Assembly: GCA_020847075.1 (NCBI GenBank)
Contig: JADLCS010000062.1
Span: forward strand, 16,450 to 80,449
Direction: 5' to 3'
Origin: Gammaproteobacteria bacterium
GTDB taxonomy: Bacteria > Pseudomonadota > Gammaproteobacteria > SZUA-140
Length of the DNA stretch: 64,000 nt
The notes below the pieces were generated by a model that saw only the letters and a list, made by a program, of their open reading frames with translations, searched no databases and was not told the DNA's origin. The position numbers and the translations under genes were made by a program. This document shows positions 9,223 through 50,872 of the stretch, one piece after another; within the stretch, counting starts at the first letter, position 1; each line of letters opens with the position of its first letter.

Positions 9223-9507
9223 CTAGCGGGAATCCGGAGACAGATATTCGTCCCGGCAGGCGTCGCGCAGCATCTCCGCTGCGGCGTCGCTGCCGATCCG
9301 CGGCAGAACGCTGAACAGACAGCCGCGGTAATTACGCTCCCGCTCCGCCTGCGACACGACGCCCTCGACCGGAGCGGTGCGCAGGATCCGTATGCGCTCA
9401 TCGAACGCACCGTCCGCGGCCACGCCTTCGCGCCCGAACCACAACGCCCCGGACAACATCACCGCGAACACCCCCACCCCACACAATACGACCCGTCTCC
9501 CGTTCAT
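9223..9507 (-). CDS. Small exported hypothetical protein
   Basis: Hydrophobic N-terminal segment then a short Cys-containing mature region. Confidence 0.5.
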   Translation of the reverse strand: MNGRRVVLCGVGVFAVMLSGALWFGREGVAADGAFDERIRILRTAPVEGVVSQAERERNYRGCLFSVLPRIGSDAAAEMLRDACRDEYLSPDSR

Positions 9508-9817: not shown

Positions 9818-9917
9818 AAGGATCAGGTAGGAGACAAACTGTTACAAATTCAGACCGGCGGCCCCGGAAAAGGTTCCATGAAAATCCAGAAATCCTTTAT
9901 GTGTATGAAATTCATTC

Positions 9918-9945
9918 AAAAAAAGCCCCGCAGGGGGTGCGGGGC
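9918..9945 (-). terminator. Rho-independent terminator, reverse strand
   Basis: GCCCCGCA-CCCCC-TGCGGGGC followed by TTTTTTT on the reverse strand. Confidence 0.75.
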
Positions 9946-10021
9946 GAATGAGGGGATGTTGCCAGGAGAGAAACTTGAAGCCCCATCCGTGGGCATAGGA
10001 CTCCTTACCTCGGAATTTCTG

Positions 10022-10195
10022 TCAGGCCCTCGATTTCAGGCATCCCTGAAACTCGCGATCGCCCAGCGGCCGCATGTACATGGCCGGGACGACCACTTTG
10101 GGCGATGCCGCGGACCGCGGGTGGCCGGCCTCCCGCCCGCCGGTAAGCGTTTCCCGCAGAGAGCCGGATTTGTTGATCTTTACGTGGCGTACCAT
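10022..10195 (-). CDS. Small ORF, 57 aa: MVRHVKINKSGSLRETLTGGREAGHPRSAASPKVVVPAMYMRPLGDREFQGCLKSRA
   Basis: Translated by hand from the reverse strand; SD AGGAGG upstream of ATG; terminator downstream; absent from the ORF track. Confidence 0.55.
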   Translation of the reverse strand: MVRHVKINKSGSLRETLTGGREAGHPRSAASPKVVVPAMYMRPLGDREFQGCLKSRA

Positions 10196-10250
10196 GTTCA
10201 ATCCTCCTGAATTTCCTGTTCGTTGCCCGTATGCGGACTCACCCTATGTT

Positions 10251-10268
10251 TTGCATCAGGCGTGCCAA
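10251..10268 (-). promoter_or_regulatory. Sigma54-type -24/-12 promoter candidate (TTGGCACGCCTGATGCAA)
   Basis: GG-N10-GC spacing; one mismatch to TGGCAYRN4TTGCW; about 60 bp upstream of the small ORF. Confidence 0.5.
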
Positions 10269-10498
10269 TTGCCGGGATCACGAGACATAATCAATAAAAA
10301 CAATATATTGAATATTTTCACGGAGACCCGGGCGCACTGAAGACGCGCCAGACAATGGTGCAAACCGCCGCTATGGGGCCAATTAAACCAGCCCTTACGG
10401 TGCAAAAAACTGACCTGGGGCAAGAATCGGAAAAAAACCCGCGCGGGGATCCATAGTGGCAAAAGAGACCCCGTCTCCGCGCGAACACGAAGCCGCGT

Positions 10499-11671
10499 CT
10501 ACTGGTGAGGGGGGTGATCGAGGGCTTCGTTCTGTTCCAGCAGGGGCTCGTAGCGGCGGTCGGTCAGCGTCTTCAGAAACGCCACCAGTGCGTTGATGCG
10601 CCGACTGTCGAGGGCCGGCCCGGTCTCCAGTTCCTTCAGGGAAATATTCTCGGGCACCTCGGGTGCCCCCCATTCCTTCCCGGTTTCCGGATCGATCTGC
10701 CGCCTGGGGTTGTGGCTGTTGTACTTATTGTAAAACAGGACCACGGTGCGCAGATCCCTGAACACCCCGTTGTGCATATACGGCCCGGTGACGGCGACGT
10801 TGCGCAGCGTGGGCACCTTGAACTTCCCTGCTGCATCCGCCTCATGCACCTCGGGATTCTCCTGCAACCCACGATCGACGAACCCCCCGCCCTTGCCGTT
10901 GAGCGCCCTCAGCTCCGTGTTGGCCGGCACGCCGATGTTGTGATACTCGTAGCTGCTGAAGGTTTCCTTTTCATCCACCTGGCTCTGCCGCAACCGGTGG
11001 CACAGATTGCAGTTGGTGAACTGGCGGGAGAAGAACAGGGTCATGCCCAGATTTTCCTGCGGGGTCATCTCGTATTCACCGCGCAGATAGCGATCGTATT
11101 TGGAATCGAACGGCGCGAAGAAATCCGTCTCCTCGAAGGCCGCGATGCTCTTCCTCATCGCGGCATAGGCCGCCTCGGTATCCGCCCAGATACCATCACC
11201 GTAGAACTGCCTGAACGCGCCGACATAGACCGGGTTCTCTTTCAACCGCTCGATCACCGCGGCCTGGCTAGGCATCGCCATCTCGATCGGGTTCAGCAGC
11301 GGATCCCCCGCCTGGCCCGCGAGGTCCGGCCGACGCCCGTCCCAGAACTGCCCGCCCACGTATTTTCCGTCCACGCCCCTGTGAAAACGGGGACTGAACT
11401 TCGCATAGGCGGCGGTGGGCGCGTTGCGGTCCCCCACCGAATGCCCGTCATCGCCCAGCGAGGCCGCGGCCAGGGCACCGCGGCCTCGCGTGTCGACGAA
11501 CCCCGCCTCCGGCGCATGGCAGGTGGCGCAGGCCTGGGTACGGTTCCGGGACAGATTCACATCGAAATAGAGCATCTGCCCCAGGGCCGCCGCATCCGGC
11601 ACGAGAGGCGCATCGGCGCAGACGGGCGCCACGCCGATCAGGGCCAGCAGGATGGGCAGATATTTGTTCAC
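10499..11671 (-). CDS. Di-haem cytochrome c peroxidase / MauG family protein
   Basis: Signal peptide, CATCH and CNLCH haem motifs, TPQENLGMTLFFSRQF, KVPTLRNVAVTGPYMHNGVFRDL. Confidence 0.85.
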   Translation of the reverse strand: MNKYLPILLALIGVAPVCADAPLVPDAAALGQMLYFDVNLSRNRTQACATCHAPEAGFVDTRGRGALAAASLGDDGHSVGDRNAPTAAYAKFSPRFHRGVDGKYVGGQFWDGRRPDLAGQAGDPLLNPIEMAMPSQAAVIERLKENPVYVGAFRQFYGDGIWADTEAAYAAMRKSIAAFEETDFFAPFDSKYDRYLRGEYEMTPQENLGMTLFFSRQFTNCNLCHRLRQSQVDEKETFSSYEYHNIGVPANTELRALNGKGGGFVDRGLQENPEVHEADAAGKFKVPTLRNVAVTGPYMHNGVFRDLRTVVLFYNKYNSHNPRRQIDPETGKEWGAPEVPENISLKELETGPALDSRRINALVAFLKTLTDRRYEPLLEQNEALDHPPHQ

Positions 11672-11970
11672 GCGGATACCTAATCGAAGGGCACTGAAAG
11701 AGGGATGACGATGATATTCACCCTCCCGCCGCACACCGGTATAGACACCAGATCATGATAATCGTTCTCGATTGAGAGCGCTATGACTAGGGCTACTGCG
11801 AAGCTCCACAAGTCTGGCTTATTGTATTCAATGTCCGGTAAACGATGGGAAACATTGAACAGTGCCTGGCATTTACCATCGGCGGGAAAAATTACGAGAT
11901 TTTATTTAACTATACCCGAGAGCAAGGATTGGCTTCTCAGCAGAGACTAATCTGTACTTAACTAGATTAA

Positions 11971-12327
11971 TTACAGAAAATTGAAAATATCCTTAATAAG
12001 GGTACCTACGCACAAAACCGTCAAACTTATTGCATATAGATAACCAAAGAATAAAAAAAATCTACCACGTGGCTTGTGGTTAGGAATCCATGAATTCCCG
12101 CGCAAGCCAAATAACGCCTTACTCATCTCTTCAGGACGTGCCACAAGATAAATTGGCGCCCACCCGCATAGCATTGATCCTACTGCAAGAGCAGGATAAG
12201 GATAGCGCCCAGATGACTCATTAAAAACGTTCGCGGATACATATAGAATTACCCAGAAAAGCAGAACATTAACAATGCCCAGAATTACAATTGGATGCCG
12301 AAATGGGAGACCGAAAGTTAGAAACAT
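11971..12327 (-). CDS. Small multi-TM hypothetical protein, candidate RHS immunity protein
   Basis: AT-rich; start overlaps the RHS stop by 10 nt; hydrophobic helices. Confidence 0.5.
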   Translation of the reverse strand: MFLTFGLPFRHPIVILGIVNVLLFWVILYVSANVFNESSGRYPYPALAVGSMLCGWAPIYLVARPEEMSKALFGLRGNSWIPNHKPRGRFFLFFGYLYAISLTVLCVGTLIKDIFNFL

Positions 12328-15300
12328 GAATACTGGGCCTCTAAGCCGAATTCATCAGCCATTGCATCCGATATGCTCCAGCTTATCAAGCCAGACTGAA
12401 TAGCCAGATCAAATAGCGTACCAGAAAGTATCTTTATCAATGCTGGGACGCCTGATGCCGTAAGCGCCAATGAAGCGCCACCTAATGCGCCGCTAACAAC
12501 TGCCTTACCTACATCTTTACTAAAGATGCTACCAGTTTGCGCCGCCTTTGTTAGGCCACCCACAATACCACCGACTATCGATCCACCAATTGTAGCCGGA
12601 ATTGCTTGTATCACCTTACCATCTGGATCAAACCGATTGATTGGATCATCCAGTACATACCCATATAGATTCGTATCCCCGCCCTGAAATCTTATCGGAT
12701 CCTTCGCTGTCCATCTTCCCGTTTCGGGATCGTAATCTCTCGCCCCAAACCTGACCAGACCGGTATGTTGATCATGGATTCCACCCGCGAAGCCGAAGGG
12801 CTGGAAGCCCGGGTTGGTGTCGTTGATGACCCTGCCCCAGGCGTCATAGTCGATACGCTGGGCGATCGACCCGTCATCCGCATTGACCACCAGTCGCGGG
12901 CTCCCCAGGTGATCGGAAAGGATGCGATAGGTCACGCCGTTCTTGATCATGTAGCTGGGGATATTGGGTTTCTCGCCGTAGACGAAACGGGAAACCACGC
13001 GGCCCGAGCCGTCGAGCTCGGCGACCGGATTCAACTGATCCTGGTACAGAAAGCCCTGCACCAGGACGCCGCCCGCTTTCTTTCCGATCCTGCGGTTTCT
13101 TCCATCGATGACGTAATCGATATCGATATCTCCCGGCAGACCGACATGGCGCAGATTTCCCAACGCATCATAGCCATAGACGGTCGTCACCCCCGCCTCC
13201 GTCTTGCTGGCGAGTTCGCCATTTCCGGTATAGGAGTAACTTGCGGCGCCGAAAGACGAAAGCCTGTCCTGCTCATCATAGACCGCGATCAGAACGCCGT
13301 TCCGGTGAGTGCGGTTGCCATTGGCGTCATAGCCCCAGGCAGTGGAAATCCCGTTGCGGGTCACGCTTATGAGATGACCGGCCTGGCTGTAAGCGTAGCT
13401 TTCGGAGAGGCTCACGCCATTCAGGGTTTCCACCTTACTCGTGATCCGGCCCAGGGCATCGCGCTCATACTCATACCCGGCGATTGGGTCACCACCGACA
13501 CTCGCCGTATGCCCCACCGATTCGGCAAAGGTATTGTATGTCTCCGTGGTCGTCAGGTTCGCCAGAGAGGTCCCGCTCAACAGCCCGTTGGATGCCTCAC
13601 GGGCGATGGCGAGATCTCCGGCGTGGATCATCAGGCCATCATCGTCATAGCCGTAAGCGATCATGTCGTTATTGACCCCAATCCCTGTCCACCAGAAATT
13701 ATTGTCATAGGCATAGCTCACGATGCCGCTTACTTCGCCACTCATCGTCTCCGACAGCGGCAGAAAACCATCCCAGGTGTAGCTCAGATCGACGCCCGGG
13801 GCGGCGATCCGGGTCAACTGTCCGGTCGCCTGCCCGTAGGTATAGAGATACCGTCCCTGGGAGAAATCCAGCGCGCTTAATCGCCCGCCCGGATCATATC
13901 CGTATGCCACCGATTGACCATCCGGACGCTCGACCAAGGTCGGTTGTTTATCGAGATTGTAATGATACTGGGTCACCGTCGTGACGCCCGAGAGATCCGG
14001 CGGAGAATAGCGCGCATCCAGATTGACCGCCGTGTACTCGAACAGATGCGCCTCCCGCCCCGGCGGAAGAATCGAAACGAGATTTCCATTCGGGTCATAG
14101 GCGTAGCGGATCGTGCGGTCACCGGGCAGAACCTGACGGGTAATACGCCCCGCCGGATCATGATCGAGGGCCGTGACACGGCCCAGGGCGTCGGTAACGG
14201 TATCCAGGAAACCGTCGGCATCGTAAGACAGGGCGATCGATCGCGCCCCCGCGCCCACGCCCTGAGCGATCGTCATGAGACGCCCACGCGGGTCATACGC
14301 ATATAAAATCGGGTCGAGTCCGGTGACAATCCTTTTCAGGATGCGTCCCTGGTCATCGACCTCCACGACGCCGATCCGGGATTCGGGCGTGGTGGTGGTA
14401 TGGGTATTCGCCGCGACATCGTAGATCAACGATGTGACGCGACCATTGACATCGAGGGCATCACGCATGACGAGATCCGCCGCGGGGATTATGGTACGCC
14501 CGGCATTTACACTCGAACTCAATCCCGATGGGGTGGTCGTCGTCATCTGCGTCATGATCGGCGCCAGCATACCGAGTCTCGGGTCAGGGCCCGATCGGGT
14601 CGAAATCACGGTTCCATCGGCATCGACCGAGACAGTCCGACCGTCATCATAGGATGTCCGCCGCGTCTGCGCGCCATCCGGATGGATTATTCTCCTGATC
14701 TCGCCCCCGACGGCAGAAACATCCAAGGGATTGAAGACGATTTCTTCCGTCTGATAGACCGTGGTCCTGTTCAGCGCCGACGTCATATTCACCTGATGCC
14801 CGCGGGGAAGGGGAACCCTGGACAGGTCCCAGTATCCTCCAAGACCGTCCTCGTCGCGCACCAGCTTCCCGAAGGCATCGTACTGCATCAGAGAACGGTT
14901 ATTGCGCGGATCCATCATACCCTGTAACAGTCCACCAGACAGATAGGTGAATTCATGGGTCTCTCCCATCGGATCGGTGACGCTTGCCAGATAGCCCTCT
15001 CCGGTGAGGGAAACCGTCGTGCGAAGATTATCCGGGCTGTCGATCGCGACGACACCATGGTCGGTCGGATTACGCTCGATCGATGTCCTGTTCCCGTCAC
15101 CGTCTTCTATTTCCGTCAGATAATTCGCATCATCATAGCCGAACCGATAGAGAACAGATCCCGTATAGGCGTTTATCGTGTCCAGGTGACGCCCGTACGG
15201 ATCGAAGCGGTAGATCTCGTTACCATCACTCGAAGGGATGGAGATGTTCTCCCCGCTGAATCGGGGATACAGCGCCGCGACGACATAGACACGGCTGTCC

Positions 15301-18300
15301 CCCGGCTGCGGGATATATATATTTCCATCCGGCCCCGTCGCGATGCGCTCCACGTATATCGCGGTATTCATCGGCAGGCTGTGGTCGGACACGGAACCTC
15401 CGAGACCGTTTCCGACGATAGTATTGATAACGCCATCGGGACCTATTTTCCGGATCCTCTGATTGGTGGCGTCCGCGACGAGCAAGTTGCCATCCGCGTT
15501 CATGGCGAGGCCGCTTGGATTCCGGAGCGTGGCCGAGGTCGCCGGACCACCGTCCCCGGAAAACCCGAAGACCCCGGTTCCGGCATAGGTGTGTATGATT
15601 CCGGCAGGGTCGATGCGACGGACACGCTGATTATTCGGTTCCGAGAAAATCAAACTGCCGTCAGGCGAAACGATCATGTCGTCTATCGTCGTCAATCGCG
15701 CCTCCAAGGCCGGAATCCCGTCACCGTTATAGCCGTTCTGCCCGGTCCCCGCGAAATACCTGACGACGCCGGCGGGCGTAATCTCGAATATTCTGTTACG
15801 CCCCGCGACATACATCCGCCCGTCTGCCCCGAACGCCATGTCGCTGGAAAAGGACAACATGAAGTCCGTAGCGAGACAGCCGTCTTCGGTACTGATCCGG
15901 GAAGGGCGTCCGGTCTCCGGATCCAGCTCACCCGGACAGCCGGACACTATGACACCCTCACCCGGAAGCGATTCCCCCGATCCAACGACCGTGGTCACGA
16001 TGCCATCGGCGCCGACCCTACGTATTCTTCGATTTCCCGTATCGCTGATATAAAGCGCCCCATCCGTTCCGATCGAGACACGCGAAGGCTCATCGAACCG
16101 CGCCGATATTGCCGGCCCCCCATCTCCGCTGAAACCCGAGATACCGGTGCCGGCATAGGTGCTGATCACCCCGTCCGGCGCGATACGCCGGATACGGTGG
16201 TCGAGCGGATCGGCAATATACACACTGCCGTCACCCCCGACCGCAACGTCCATCGGGCTCTCCAGCCGGGCCTCCAACGCGGAGCCTCCATCACCGCCAT
16301 GCCCCGAAGAGCCATCGCCGGCGACCGGCACGATGACCCGATTCAGTTCGAGATAACGATTATCGGCGCTGCGTCTTTCACCGTCGCCTTTCTGCAGTAT
16401 CTGCCCGTTCGGATCATAGAAATGATGCGCGGAAAGCGTCCATCCGCCCATCCCCTGCCCCCTGGCATCCCAGGTATCTGCTGGCGCCAGCTTCAGGGAG
16501 TGACCATACGTCATACGGACATCCCCACGCTGCCGGCTCGCGGCCTCGTTCAGACCGGCGATGCTGATGCGGGAAAAGGCCTCTTCCATGGAGGGCGGGT
16601 AGTACACGAGGGGGTAGACATACTCGACCTCGATATAGGCATTCTGAAGCCCCTGCATGCGACGGCCATAGGCATCTTCACCATCCCAGGTGAACGTCAC
16701 CGTCTGATTCGTCGCGGGCGGATAGGTCTGCTGGAATCGACGACCGCCCACGCGGACGCGCATGACGATCGATCTCAGCGACGCGGGCAGGGTATCGCCG
16801 CTGATTCTGACCTGGAGAGTATTCGCCGTTTTTCGGCCCGGGACACGGTCGCTGCGATAATTCAGTGAAAAAGGAGTGCCCGCGATCGCTATCCTTTCTC
16901 CCAGGATCTGATTCTGGCACTCGATGATCGAACCACCCCGGCATTCGGGGTTATCCAGTTTCTCGGATCCTTCGGCCAGGATGTCGACCCTCGGCACATC
17001 CGCGTCCACGGGGGGACCAAAGGGCCAGTTGTAATCCCAGGGGGAAAAGTGATCGACGGGGACACGCCATAGACTCTTCCCCGCGGCGTACAGGGATGCC
17101 AGCCGCTGCCGTTCCTCATCGGTGATGCCCAGTCCTTCCAGCGAAGACGCGCTGGCCGGCGTGCCGCTGCCGTCTATATCCAGGCTCGCCAGGCCGTTAC
17201 CGGCGTCGAGGATCCGGATGATCAACCCATTCCGGGAGGCCACCCAGGCCGCCTTGCTTCGATCGTAGTACCCCGAGGGGACGATCCAGCCCACGGGGAA
17301 ATCGAGGAAATTATCCACATAAGTGATGACCGATTGATTGAACCGCACGCTCTCGGCGCCGGCGGCGCGCGCCTCGTCCACACTGAAATCGACGGCATAG
17401 GTGTATCCGCTCGCCGGCGGCAATTCCGCGGGCATTGCCTGGGTCCCGCTCGCGCCCACCGTATATTCCGTTGCCCGCACGCTCAAGGCCTCAAGCCCCC
17501 GGACCGAGCCGTCCGGCATCCTCATCTCGGCCCTCGTCCCGCGCGGGAACAGGAGGGTCGCCCGCCTGACGCCATCGGCATCGTTCATCACACTGCCACG
17601 CGCGACCTGCATGCCGGGGGCATTCATATCGATCGTCGTGACGGAAGGATCGACCGGGATCACCACCACATCCGGAAGAATCCTGTAATCCTGCCACGGC
17701 ATCTCCACGGCACGCTGCACGGGAAGATATCCCTGGCGTTCGTAATTCATGGTCAGATATCCGCCGCCATTGACGACCAGATCGAACATGCCGTCTGAAC
17801 GCGTCAGGGTCCGTCCATACTCGGGATGCCCGTGGACCGTCACGGAAACACCGGATACCGGACGATCGGCCCGATCGAGCACCCGCCCGCGCGCGACGGC
17901 GACCCGACGGGGGTCGATCGTCTCCGGCGACATGCCCGTCTGAATCGGAGTGCTCCCGGTATAAAGAAAGCGGATGGATTCGGAAAGGTTCGTCGCCACG
18001 GTCGGGTCGAGCGGAGGGGCGATGGAAATCGGATCCGGCGGCAATACCCCTCCCGGGACATCTGCCCGCCGTTTCGGGTCGCTCCCGGCCCCTATCTCGG
18101 CGCCATCATCGAAACCATCCCCATCGGTATCCGCATTGAGAGGATCCGTGAGAAACCGCCCGACCTCCACCCCATCGGACAGGCCGTCTCCATCCGAGTC
18201 CGGATTGAGCGGATCGGTATGATGCAGATTGACCTCATCGCCGTCACTGAGGCCATCTCCGTCGGAATCGGCCGATCCCGGGTCCGTCCCGAGTACCCGC

Positions 18301-19625
18301 TCCTCCTCATCAGGGACGCCATCGCCATCGGTGTCCGGAACGGCGCCGGGCCCAGCATCGATCTGAACGGTATCCGGCTCACTGTCCAGGAGGCCGTCGC
18401 CGACGATGAGCTGAACCACATAAATACCCTCGACATCCGCCACCAGAACGGGTGTTTCCGTGTCCCCGTCCCGAAGGACCGCGCCGCTGCCCGCAGGAAC
18501 GCTCACGAGCGACCACCGGTAACTCAAGAGATCCAAGTCCGCATCGCTGGATCCTCCTCCATCCAGGGTTATCGGGTCACCGATGAAGGCATGGATATCC
18601 TCCCCGGCCTCCGCGACCGGGCGCGAATTCCGGGTGGCGATCACGACGCGATCCGGCGGGCTGGACTGATGCCCATCGTCCACGATGAGATCCAGCTCAT
18701 ATGTCCCGGGCTGATCGACATAGAACGCGGGTCGATCTATAAAGGGATTATCCAGAACGGCCATACTCCGCTCCGGGCGCGCGACGAGAATCCACTGATA
18801 TCCCAATGGATCACCGTCGGCGTCCGTCGATCCGCTCCCATCGAGCAGAACGGTATCCCCCACGGATACGGTCCGATCCGGGCCGGCATGAGCGACCGGG
18901 GTCGAATTCAGCGTGGATATCCTCACCGTATCCGGAACGCTGTCCACATGACCGTCATTGACGACCAGCCCCGCGACATAATCGCCAAAGGCATCCACCG
19001 TGAAACTCGATCTCGGTCCATTGTTCCCCGAGACCACGGCGGAACTCCCCGAGGGAACGGAATCGAGGCTCCAGCGATAGCTCAGGATATCCCCATCCAG
19101 ATCCGTCGACCCGGAACCGTCCAGCGTGACGGTATCGCCGATATAGGCCGTGATATCCGGCCCCGCCTCGGCCACGGGGGGCGTATTGCCTGGACCGGAG
19201 ACCGGGCGATAGACCCTGGAAAAAAACCTCAATGCGGCATTACGCTGCGGTTTTCTGAAAATGACGACACGGGCATGCCTCTCTCCTGGGGAGAGCACGG
19301 CATCGAGGATAGGATGGAACGGAATCCCCTCCGAGCTGGACGTACCCGGCCAGATCACCGAGGCAGAAGCAGGAGAGATATTCTCCACGGCGAGATAAAG
19401 AGGTCCCCGGATCGGCTTTCTCCCCGTGTTGGAGAAAGTCACCACATACGTCTCATAATTATTGAACGGATTGAAATCGGTCTTTCTGGAATCCACGACG
19501 ACGTCGCGCGCCGGCTGCATTCCGGCCAATGAAACCGCCGTGTGCGCGTGCACATTCGAAACCGGAGCCCCCAGCCACAGGGCAATCCCCAAGCCCACGA
19601 CGGAAATACGACCATACGCTTTCAT
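12318..19625 (-). CDS. Giant RHS/YD-repeat protein: signal peptide, 3 PKD-like domains, TSP3-like Ca repeats, carboxypeptidase-regulatory-like domain, NHL repeats, YD repeats, RHS core end, short C-terminal tip
   Basis: PVAEAGPDITAYIGDTVTLDGSGSTDLDGD x3; DSDGDGLSDGDE repeats; GDGGPA...VYIADPLDHRIRRI repeats; YDPxG repeats; RFGARDYDPETGRWTAKDPIRFQGGDTNLYGYVLDDPINRFDPDGK. Confidence 0.93.
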   Translation of the reverse strand: MKAYGRISVVGLGIALWLGAPVSNVHAHTAVSLAGMQPARDVVVDSRKTDFNPFNNYETYVVTFSNTGRKPIRGPLYLAVENISPASASVIWPGTSSSEGIPFHPILDAVLSPGERHARVVIFRKPQRNAALRFFSRVYRPVSGPGNTPPVAEAGPDITAYIGDTVTLDGSGSTDLDGDILSYRWSLDSVPSGSSAVVSGNNGPRSSFTVDAFGDYVAGLVVNDGHVDSVPDTVRISTLNSTPVAHAGPDRTVSVGDTVLLDGSGSTDADGDPLGYQWILVARPERSMAVLDNPFIDRPAFYVDQPGTYELDLIVDDGHQSSPPDRVVIATRNSRPVAEAGEDIHAFIGDPITLDGGGSSDADLDLLSYRWSLVSVPAGSGAVLRDGDTETPVLVADVEGIYVVQLIVGDGLLDSEPDTVQIDAGPGAVPDTDGDGVPDEEERVLGTDPGSADSDGDGLSDGDEVNLHHTDPLNPDSDGDGLSDGVEVGRFLTDPLNADTDGDGFDDGAEIGAGSDPKRRADVPGGVLPPDPISIAPPLDPTVATNLSESIRFLYTGSTPIQTGMSPETIDPRRVAVARGRVLDRADRPVSGVSVTVHGHPEYGRTLTRSDGMFDLVVNGGGYLTMNYERQGYLPVQRAVEMPWQDYRILPDVVVIPVDPSVTTIDMNAPGMQVARGSVMNDADGVRRATLLFPRGTRAEMRMPDGSVRGLEALSVRATEYTVGASGTQAMPAELPPASGYTYAVDFSVDEARAAGAESVRFNQSVITYVDNFLDFPVGWIVPSGYYDRSKAAWVASRNGLIIRILDAGNGLASLDIDGSGTPASASSLEGLGITDEERQRLASLYAAGKSLWRVPVDHFSPWDYNWPFGPPVDADVPRVDILAEGSEKLDNPECRGGSIIECQNQILGERIAIAGTPFSLNYRSDRVPGRKTANTLQVRISGDTLPASLRSIVMRVRVGGRRFQQTYPPATNQTVTFTWDGEDAYGRRMQGLQNAYIEVEYVYPLVYYPPSMEEAFSRISIAGLNEAASRQRGDVRMTYGHSLKLAPADTWDARGQGMGGWTLSAHHFYDPNGQILQKGDGERRSADNRYLELNRVIVPVAGDGSSGHGGDGGSALEARLESPMDVAVGGDGSVYIADPLDHRIRRIAPDGVISTYAGTGISGFSGDGGPAISARFDEPSRVSIGTDGALYISDTGNRRIRRVGADGIVTTVVGSGESLPGEGVIVSGCPGELDPETGRPSRISTEDGCLATDFMLSFSSDMAFGADGRMYVAGRNRIFEITPAGVVRYFAGTGQNGYNGDGIPALEARLTTIDDMIVSPDGSLIFSEPNNQRVRRIDPAGIIHTYAGTGVFGFSGDGGPATSATLRNPSGLAMNADGNLLVADATNQRIRKIGPDGVINTIVGNGLGGSVSDHSLPMNTAIYVERIATGPDGNIYIPQPGDSRVYVVAALYPRFSGENISIPSSDGNEIYRFDPYGRHLDTINAYTGSVLYRFGYDDANYLTEIEDGDGNRTSIERNPTDHGVVAIDSPDNLRTTVSLTGEGYLASVTDPMGETHEFTYLSGGLLQGMMDPRNNRSLMQYDAFGKLVRDEDGLGGYWDLSRVPLPRGHQVNMTSALNRTTVYQTEEIVFNPLDVSAVGGEIRRIIHPDGAQTRRTSYDDGRTVSVDADGTVISTRSGPDPRLGMLAPIMTQMTTTTPSGLSSSVNAGRTIIPAADLVMRDALDVNGRVTSLIYDVAANTHTTTTPESRIGVVEVDDQGRILKRIVTGLDPILYAYDPRGRLMTIAQGVGAGARSIALSYDADGFLDTVTDALGRVTALDHDPAGRITRQVLPGDRTIRYAYDPNGNLVSILPPGREAHLFEYTAVNLDARYSPPDLSGVTTVTQYHYNLDKQPTLVERPDGQSVAYGYDPGGRLSALDFSQGRYLYTYGQATGQLTRIAAPGVDLSYTWDGFLPLSETMSGEVSGIVSYAYDNNFWWTGIGVNNDMIAYGYDDDGLMIHAGDLAIAREASNGLLSGTSLANLTTTETYNTFAESVGHTASVGGDPIAGYEYERDALGRITSKVETLNGVSLSESYAYSQAGHLISVTRNGISTAWGYDANGNRTHRNGVLIAVYDEQDRLSSFGAASYSYTGNGELASKTEAGVTTVYGYDALGNLRHVGLPGDIDIDYVIDGRNRRIGKKAGGVLVQGFLYQDQLNPVAELDGSGRVVSRFVYGEKPNIPSYMIKNGVTYRILSDHLGSPRLVVNADDGSIAQRIDYDAWGRVINDTNPGFQPFGFAGGIHDQHTGLVRFGARDYDPETGRWTAKDPIRFQGGDTNLYGYVLDDPINRFDPDGKVIQAIPATIGGSIVGGIVGGLTKAAQTGSIFSKDVGKAVVSGALGGASLALTASGVPALIKILSGTLFDLAIQSGLISWSISDAMADEFGLEAQYSCF

Positions 19626-20313: not shown

Positions 20314-21393
20314 TCAACGAATGACGGAATAATCCCTCGGGTCCAGCTCGCTGTCGCGCCCCAGCACCATATCCGCCATGAGCCGCGCGCTCGCCGGTGC
20401 GAGCAGCAGGCCGTTGCGGAAGTGTCCGGCGTTGAGGAACAGACCCTGCACCCCGGGAACGTGGCCTATATAAGGTATCTCGTCCGCGGAGCCGGGGCGC
20501 AGGCCGGACCAGTGCCGCTCGATCCCGCAATCGGCAAGGAGCGGGGCCAGGGATTCGGCCGCCCGCCGCAACTCCTCGCGCGCCTCCGGCGTGGTCTCCT
20601 TCTCGAAGCCCGCCTCCTCGACCGTGCTGCCGAAGAGGACGAGGCCATCGCGGCGCGGGATCGCGTAACGCCCCGCGGCGAGCAGGATGCGGCGGATCGC
20701 GCCGGGTACGGCGCGGTAGAGCAGCATCTGTCCGCGCACCGGCCCCACGTCGATGCGGATATCGAGTTCTTCCAGCACGCGGCCGCTCCAGGCGCCGGCA
20801 GCGACGATGACGACGTCGGCGCGCAGGATCTCCCGTCCCGCGTGCACCCCTTCGATGCGATCCCCGTGTCGCAGCAGGGAAGTCACCGCGGTCTGTTCAT
20901 ACAGCCGCACGCCGCGGCGCTCGAGATCGGCGCGCAGCGCGCGGATCAGGCGCGGATTGCGGATCTGCGCCACCTCGGGGAGCCACAACGCGCGCCCGGC
21001 GGGCCGGCAGGCGGGCTCGAGCGCGGCGATCCGGACCGGGTCTCCGATCGATTCGAGCGCGATGCGATGCCGCGCCGCCCATTCCATCGCCGGACCGGAC
21101 TCGTCGGTATCCAGCACGAGCAGGCCGCTGCGCTCCCATTCCGGATCGATGCCGGTCTCCGCGGCCAGCTCCCGCGCCAACTCCGGGTAATGGCGCTGCC
21201 CCCAGGCGGCCAGGGCCGTGACCGGTTCGGGCAGGCGCCAGGGGTAGAGCGGCGAGAGGATGCCGCCCCCCGCCCAGGAGGCTTCACCGCCGAGGGCGCC
21301 GCGCTCGACGAGGTGCACCCGGCAACCCGCCCGCGCCAGTTCGCGCGCGCTCAACAGGCCGATGACGCCGCCCCCCACAATGATGCATTCCAT
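20314..21393 (-). CDS. thiO: Glycine oxidase ThiO / FAD-dependent oxidoreductase
   Basis: MECIIVGGGVIGLLSARELARAGCRVHLVERG; HWSGLRPGSADEIPYIG. Confidence 0.85.
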   Translation of the reverse strand: MECIIVGGGVIGLLSARELARAGCRVHLVERGALGGEASWAGGGILSPLYPWRLPEPVTALAAWGQRHYPELARELAAETGIDPEWERSGLLVLDTDESGPAMEWAARHRIALESIGDPVRIAALEPACRPAGRALWLPEVAQIRNPRLIRALRADLERRGVRLYEQTAVTSLLRHGDRIEGVHAGREILRADVVIVAAGAWSGRVLEELDIRIDVGPVRGQMLLYRAVPGAIRRILLAAGRYAIPRRDGLVLFGSTVEEAGFEKETTPEAREELRRAAESLAPLLADCGIERHWSGLRPGSADEIPYIGHVPGVQGLFLNAGHFRNGLLLAPASARLMADMVLGRDSELDPRDYSVIR

Positions 21394-21600
21394 CGAGATC
21401 TCCGCCCCCGCTCCCCCGGCGCGGGCGCCGCGCCGGAACATGAAATATTTCACAAAAGCGGCCGATATGAAAGGGACGAAAGATCTCGGCCGGAGAAGAT
21501 TTCATTGATTATTCAAGCAATAAAACCGTTCATCCGGCGGCCGCGACCGCCCGTCCGAATTCAAATGACCCGCCGCGGCGCGGGTGGTATCACTGTAGCC

Positions 21601-50028: not shown

Positions 50029-50295
50029 GGGCTGCGGGGCTGCGGGTCCATGCCCCCCTAGCACTAAATCCTTAGCCCATACTCCGTATTCCCTTTCCGC
50101 GCGGGATGTGTTGAAAATCCGCACTACCTGCTCAAGACCCGCAGGTCGTCGGCCGTAATCCAGGGAGGGAGCGCGGCCGCTCACGGGTTTTCCCATGCGT
50201 GGGCGCATGGCGGCGGACGATATTCGTGACCTTCATCACGTTTCCGGCCCGGCGGCCCCGGTCTCCCTCCCGATTTTGCATCCGGCCTCTCACTT

Positions 50296-50313
50296 GGCAT
50301 GCTTCGTGCAAAC
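50296..50313 (+). promoter_or_regulatory. Sigma54 promoter of pilA (TTGGCATGCTTCGTGCAA)
   Basis: GG-N10-GC spacing; downstream of pilSR and upstream of pilA. Confidence 0.75.
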
Positions 50314-50419
50314 TTTTGCGCAAGGCATGCATATAGCACCGAGCCTGGACCAAAGAGCAAAGTCATAAATAGTTTTCAGTGACATGAGACACCGACCTCA
50401 ATCCTTAGGAGAGACCTCA

Positions 50420-50872
50420 ATGAAGAAGATGCAAAAAGGCTTTACCCTGATCGAACTCATGATCGTCGTCGCGATCATCGGCATCCTGGCCGCCGTCGCG
50501 ATCCCGGCGTATCAGGACTACACCGTGCGCGCGAAGGTGACGGAAGGTCTGAATCTGGCGGCCGCCGCCAAGGCAACTGTCGCCGAGAATGCCGCGAATG
50601 GCGCGGCTCTGGATGCAGGCTGGACCCCCCCTGCGGCTACTGGCAATGTTGCTTCGGTTGTCGTAGATACTGGTACCGGTGAAATCGTGATCACTTATGA
50701 TTCGGCCATCGACAGTGGTGCAACGCTCGTTCTGGTTCCGGTAGACGACACAGGCGCTCAGCTGGCTTCGGGCACAATTCCTGAGGGCCGTATCTCTTGG
50801 AGCTGTGACGACTCGATCGGCACCGCAGGCACTCTGCAATCCAAGTACCGCCCGAGCAACTGCCGCTCGTAA
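50420..50872 (+). CDS. pilA: Major type IV pilin PilA
   Basis: [45 protein letters not shown]-terminal Cys pair. Confidence 0.95.

Follow-up and report, generated by a model that had tools for sequence, protein, structure and literature searches.

A conserved 57-amino acid gene with a probable sigma54-type promoter and its own terminator in a relative of sulfur bacteria

Introduction

The consensus site of NtrC is 17 bp long. The PEP-CTERM genes under PrsK/PrsR are monocistronic and have long upstream regions, and the PrsR-type layout consists of an activator motif (sometimes repeated), a spacer of ~63 nt, a -24/-12 element, and ~71 nt to the start codon (Haft 2006, PMC1569441). In Rhodobacter, the mRNA of CcaF1 (DUF1127) is accompanied by the CcsR RNAs, which are derived from its 3' UTR (PMC8625941). 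A further system for comparison is pilA under PilR/RpoN.

The small gene described here is located on the minus strand of the window, that is, the whole stretch of 64,000 nucleotides that was analysed; its host, with a genome of 2.5 Mb, is a sulfur-bacterium relative, and the gene is unannotated. Upstream spacing and monocistronic layout are similar to those of the PEP-CTERM/PrsR genes; their motif 1 ends in TTTACA, whereas the boxes found here read TTTGCACC (compared by that ending, the full motif being given as a logo), and the product here has neither a signal peptide nor a PEP-CTERM tail. The -24/-12 element has the same shape as that of pilA under PilR/RpoN, but the motifs in the activator region differ. 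The half-site TGCACC and the dyad-like GCACCA...TGGCGC resemble those of NtrC-bound sigma54 promoters, with a dyad centre spacing two bases longer than in the 17-bp consensus; the NtrC site TGCACCA-N3-TGGTGCA was not found upstream of the small gene (best fit, 4 mismatches in 14 positions). Like CcaF1, the product is a very small basic protein encoded ahead of a CU-rich 3' UTR; unlike CcaF1, it has no DUF1127 match in Pfam and its promoter is of another class.

Reading frame and protein family

10022-10195, minus strand: ORF of 57 amino acids, ATG at 10195 and end at 10022; basic, pI 10.9; C-terminal motif YMRPLGDREFQGCLKSRA.
10203-10208, minus strand: Shine-Dalgarno sequence AGGAGG; identity to the ortholog L028 is 100% over the leader block 10220-10201.

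The original prediction of a 57-amino acid reverse-strand ORF with AGGAGG and ATG agrees with what is present; an alternative version of 59 amino acids, starting at an upstream TTG, is given in the ORF list. A scan of public genomes yielded a single ortholog of the locus itself (n = 1), L028 in Thiogranum sp. mag.26, with ~65% amino acid identity; promoter, leader, reading frame, 3' UTR block, and terminator are retained in L028, its gene order is as in the window, and the same di-haem cytochrome gene adjoins. DNA identity between window and L028 is ~75% across the region and 55-65% in flanking and neighbouring non-coding DNA.

Conservation of the frame in near relatives and dN/dS on orthologs had been suggested as checks. 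L028 keeps the frame, and codon comparison with it (dN 0.26, dS 0.88, dN/dS 0.29) indicates purifying selection; changes are in excess at third codon positions (27/51 vs L028, p=0.003; 50/99 when pooled with the paralog pair, p=0.0003). The antisense ORFs 9878-10210 and 10074-10340 (plus strand) were rejected, their frames being interrupted in L028, as was a second small ORF, MPTDGASSFSPGNIPSFAPHPLRGFF (9996-9916, minus strand), which overlaps the terminator and whose start codon is lost in L028. Given this dN/dS in the ortholog, the broken antisense frames, and the kept signals, the small gene is almost certainly a translated gene under purifying selection. A secreted or modified peptide, a regulator, or an RNA had been proposed as its product: with the frame under selection, the gene is not only an RNA; it may encode a secreted or modified peptide or a regulator, and in view of the conserved element in the 3' UTR it may act as both protein and RNA.

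Searching the genome that contains the window, and the bacterial family to which it belongs, revealed a paralog (L002, contig 61), a relative from the same genus (L006, genome G002), and one from another genus (L005, on the same contig as L029). The members are stand-alone ORFs of 54-59 amino acids, basic (pI 9.4-11.0) and hydrophilic (5/5 members), with the C-terminal motif Y-x-T/R-P-x-G/H-D-R-x-x-x-G-C-L/M-K, in which Y, P, D, R, G, C, and K are invariant near the C-terminus. L002 and L006 are flanked by a DnaJ-like gene and a gene for a flippase-like membrane protein; no partner gene is common to the family loci. Neither 369 genomes sampled from the class nor 398 from the phylum yielded a credible further member in profile searches, though rare distant members could escape such samples; the distant matches L021, L025, L031, and L069 from these searches were rejected for want of a gene-like context or because they lie out of frame inside other genes. 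Viral contigs and plasmids held no family member.

That no family had been recognised initially is in line with the lack of any Pfam match up to E=10, or any NCBIfam match, for all five members; no known small-protein or RiPP precursor family was matched in NCBIfam or Pfam, and no relative of the family was found in the PDB. AlphaFold gave no confident fold (mean pLDDT 57, only three sequences). Judged by sequence comparison, the small gene is a member of a new, lineage-restricted family not yet listed in databases, which seems limited to a single small bacterial family.

Upstream region

10252-10268, minus strand: sigma54-type -24/-12 promoter TTGGCACGCCTGATGCA with GG-N10-GC spacing; sole exact match in the genome; kept in L028.
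10281-10320, minus strand: AT-rich spacer with the IHF-like ATTCAATATATTG (10313-10301), one mismatch to WATCAANNNNTTR.
10357-10364, minus strand: upstream box 2, TTTGCACC, conserved in L028; part of the imperfect dyad GCACCA-N5-TGGCGC.
10399-10406, minus strand: upstream box 1, TTTGCACC (within TTTTTTGCACCGTAAGGGCTGGTTTAATT), identical in L028; candidate activator half-site.

The -24/-12 element with GG-N10-GC spacing proposed earlier was recovered as described. It combines a TGGCAC-type hexamer with GG-N10-GC, the -12 element being ATGC, not TTGC; no other place in the 2.5-Mb genome, which also encodes RpoN (PF04552, 238 bits), matches TTGGCACGNNNNNTGCA without a mismatch. One-mismatch matches to TTGGCACGNNNNNTGCA are present at six other genome places, pilA included; reversing the pattern as a control yields 4. 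In L028, the promoter TTGGCACGGCTAATGCA is found at the equivalent place (distance to the start codon -70 vs -71). The element is very probably the sigma54 promoter of the small gene; transcription would start near 10241, as predicted from the promoter position, and such tight control suggests a product needed only under one condition. The upstream regions of L002 and L006 are AT-rich and contain no -24/-12 element, whereas upstream of L029 a weak GG-N10-GC (at -75) accompanies a good sigma70-like promoter; sigma54 control is thus not common to the family.

The two TTTGCACC boxes are 42 bp apart and ~90 bp upstream; the block 10420-10381 around box 1 is 95% identical in L028, and the tandem TTTGCACC-N28-40-TTTGCACC has one occurrence in the genome. 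From its sequence, the pair is a plausible activator site, and an activator quite probably acts at these boxes. The spacer in L028 is likewise AT-rich, its sequence being only 55-60% identical. The IHF-like element is indeed one mismatch from the consensus, as had been noted, but ATTCAATATATTG is not conserved in L028 and such matches are common in the window (17 with one mismatch observed vs 9.8 expected); a functional IHF site was rejected on these grounds.

Control by PilR had also been considered. The -24/-12 element of pilA is shared among nine genomes of the family; no TTTGCACC was found within 500 bp before pilA in these nine genomes, and the upstream k-mers shared by pilA (around TGAAAATCAGCA) were not found upstream of the small gene. 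As activator-region motifs are shared in neither direction, PilR is not favoured as the activator.

In the pilA promoters themselves (50294-50440, plus strand, in the window; nine family genomes), an TGAAAATCAGCA-like upstream motif is a possible PilR site; TGTGA/TCACA is present in the pilA upstream regions of several of the nine genomes, and a Shine-Dalgarno sequence AGGAGAG in most.

Downstream region

9946-9976, minus strand: 3' UTR block AGTTTCTCTCCTGGCAACATCCCCTCATTC with a CUCUCCU element; 90-95% identical in L028.
9918-9945, minus strand: intrinsic terminator GCCCCGC-ACCCCCT-GCGGGGC-T7; stem 9945-9925, then seven T.

The T7 terminator at 9945-9918, part of the original prediction, is present, and equivalent terminators are located downstream of L028, L002, and L006. 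The pattern TCTCTCCT-N8-30-CCCCGC is found at exactly two genome places, both directly after family genes (the small gene and L002). The CUCUCCU element is altered in L006 (G002: TCCCTCCC) and missing after L029.

Between the small gene and a 94-amino acid gene lies another conserved non-coding element, which carries a terminator of its own (GTTTGTCTCCTACCTGATCCTTGGCCCCCG...CGGGGGCTATTTTTTT; 9850-9783, minus strand); it is 85-90% identical in L028, was not found in other family genomes, and is a possible small RNA.

Proposed mode of action

On balance, the locus is probably a sigma54-class single-gene unit for a small protein of regulatory or adaptor type, with an NtrC-family activator at the boxes. 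Such an activator (probably not PilR) would bind the TTTGCACC boxes ~90 bp upstream, loop across the AT-rich spacer to the -24/-12 element, and open RpoN-polymerase there, the point from which transcription would proceed; production would be limited to the inducing condition. The product would be a small, basic, largely unstructured, and presumably cytoplasmic protein, whose C-terminal tail YxxPxGDRxxxGCLK would dock on a partner, either protein or RNA, whose activity it would adjust. A short binding tail would be the likeliest mode of action because conservation is found in the C-terminal tail; by analogy, the product may well be a regulatory or adaptor small protein. The monocistronic arrangement with its own terminator and the tandem boxes, conserved at a normal activator distance, support this explanation.

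A small gene easily missed by standard annotation is real; the family gains a recognisable C-terminal motif, and an exact prediction of promoter and activator site is supplied. Finding the activator would point to function. The broader significance is modest, as the family seems limited to one small bacterial family.

Alternative explanations and gene neighbourhood

The -24/-12 element could be a chance sigma54-like sequence, the small gene really being transcribed from another promoter: one-mismatch sites are about as frequent as the control pattern (7 vs 4), and the paralogs use other promoters. We regard this as highly improbable, given that the exact match is unique in the genome and is conserved in L028 equally far from the start codon, that it sits below conserved upstream boxes, and that a sigma70-like site was not found on the minus strand at the small gene. 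Also unlikely, though less remote, is a dual-function transcript, in which the small protein would be accompanied by a 3' UTR RNA (released or acting in place) whose CUCUCCU pairs with the Shine-Dalgarno regions of target mRNAs and controls their translation. Conservation is higher in the 3' UTR block than in the middle part of the ORF, the CUCUCCU element and terminator are common to both paralogs in a pattern present nowhere else in the genome, and Rhodobacter CcaF1/CcsR is a precedent for a small protein whose mRNA also yields sRNAs from its 3' UTR (PMC8625941); the element is, however, altered in G002 (L006) and absent after L029, and no Rfam match was obtained. Masking of the gene's own Shine-Dalgarno sequence by the 3' UTR was rejected: the folded window transcript shows strong pairing, yet in none of four members does it exceed that of shuffled 3' UTRs. 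pilA was rejected as a CUCUCCU target despite an 8-nt match to its Shine-Dalgarno sequence, since AGGAGAG is kept in relatives with or without the small gene alike; it does not co-vary with the altered element in G002.

A different role for the protein is suggested by the di-haem gene (10499-11734, minus strand; cytochrome c peroxidase, CCP_MauG family), which adjoins the small gene here and in L028, where the row is oxidoreductase, di-haem gene, small gene, and 94-amino acid gene. In four genomes of other genera within the family, the 94-amino acid gene (9223-9507) lies near an FAD-oxidoreductase-like gene (20314-21453), and between those flanks the di-haem gene and the small gene are both lacking; from their joint presence in L028 and absence in these four genomes, both genes were apparently gained, or kept, together. 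Mainly because of this co-inheritance, the small protein is still to be considered as the precursor of a ribosomally made, enzyme-modified peptide, whose core would be the C-terminal tail, including the invariant Cys and Tyr, and which the neighbouring enzyme, nearest to the MbnH/MauG models (TIGR04039, 149 bits, below cut-off), could modify. This reading is very unlikely: L002, L006, and L029 have no adjoining di-haem enzyme; the di-haem gene ends in a terminator-like sequence of its own, and its scores are far under the MbnH and MauG cut-offs; the peptide contains no Trp; and known precursor families gave no match. The regulatory or adaptor protein is preferred.

Between the oxidoreductase-like and di-haem genes, the window also contains a gene for a protein of 2435 amino acids with Ig-like, NHL-type, and YD/RHS repeats (12318-19625, minus strand) and, downstream of it, a small membrane-protein-like ORF (11971-12327, minus strand); both are absent from this position in L028.
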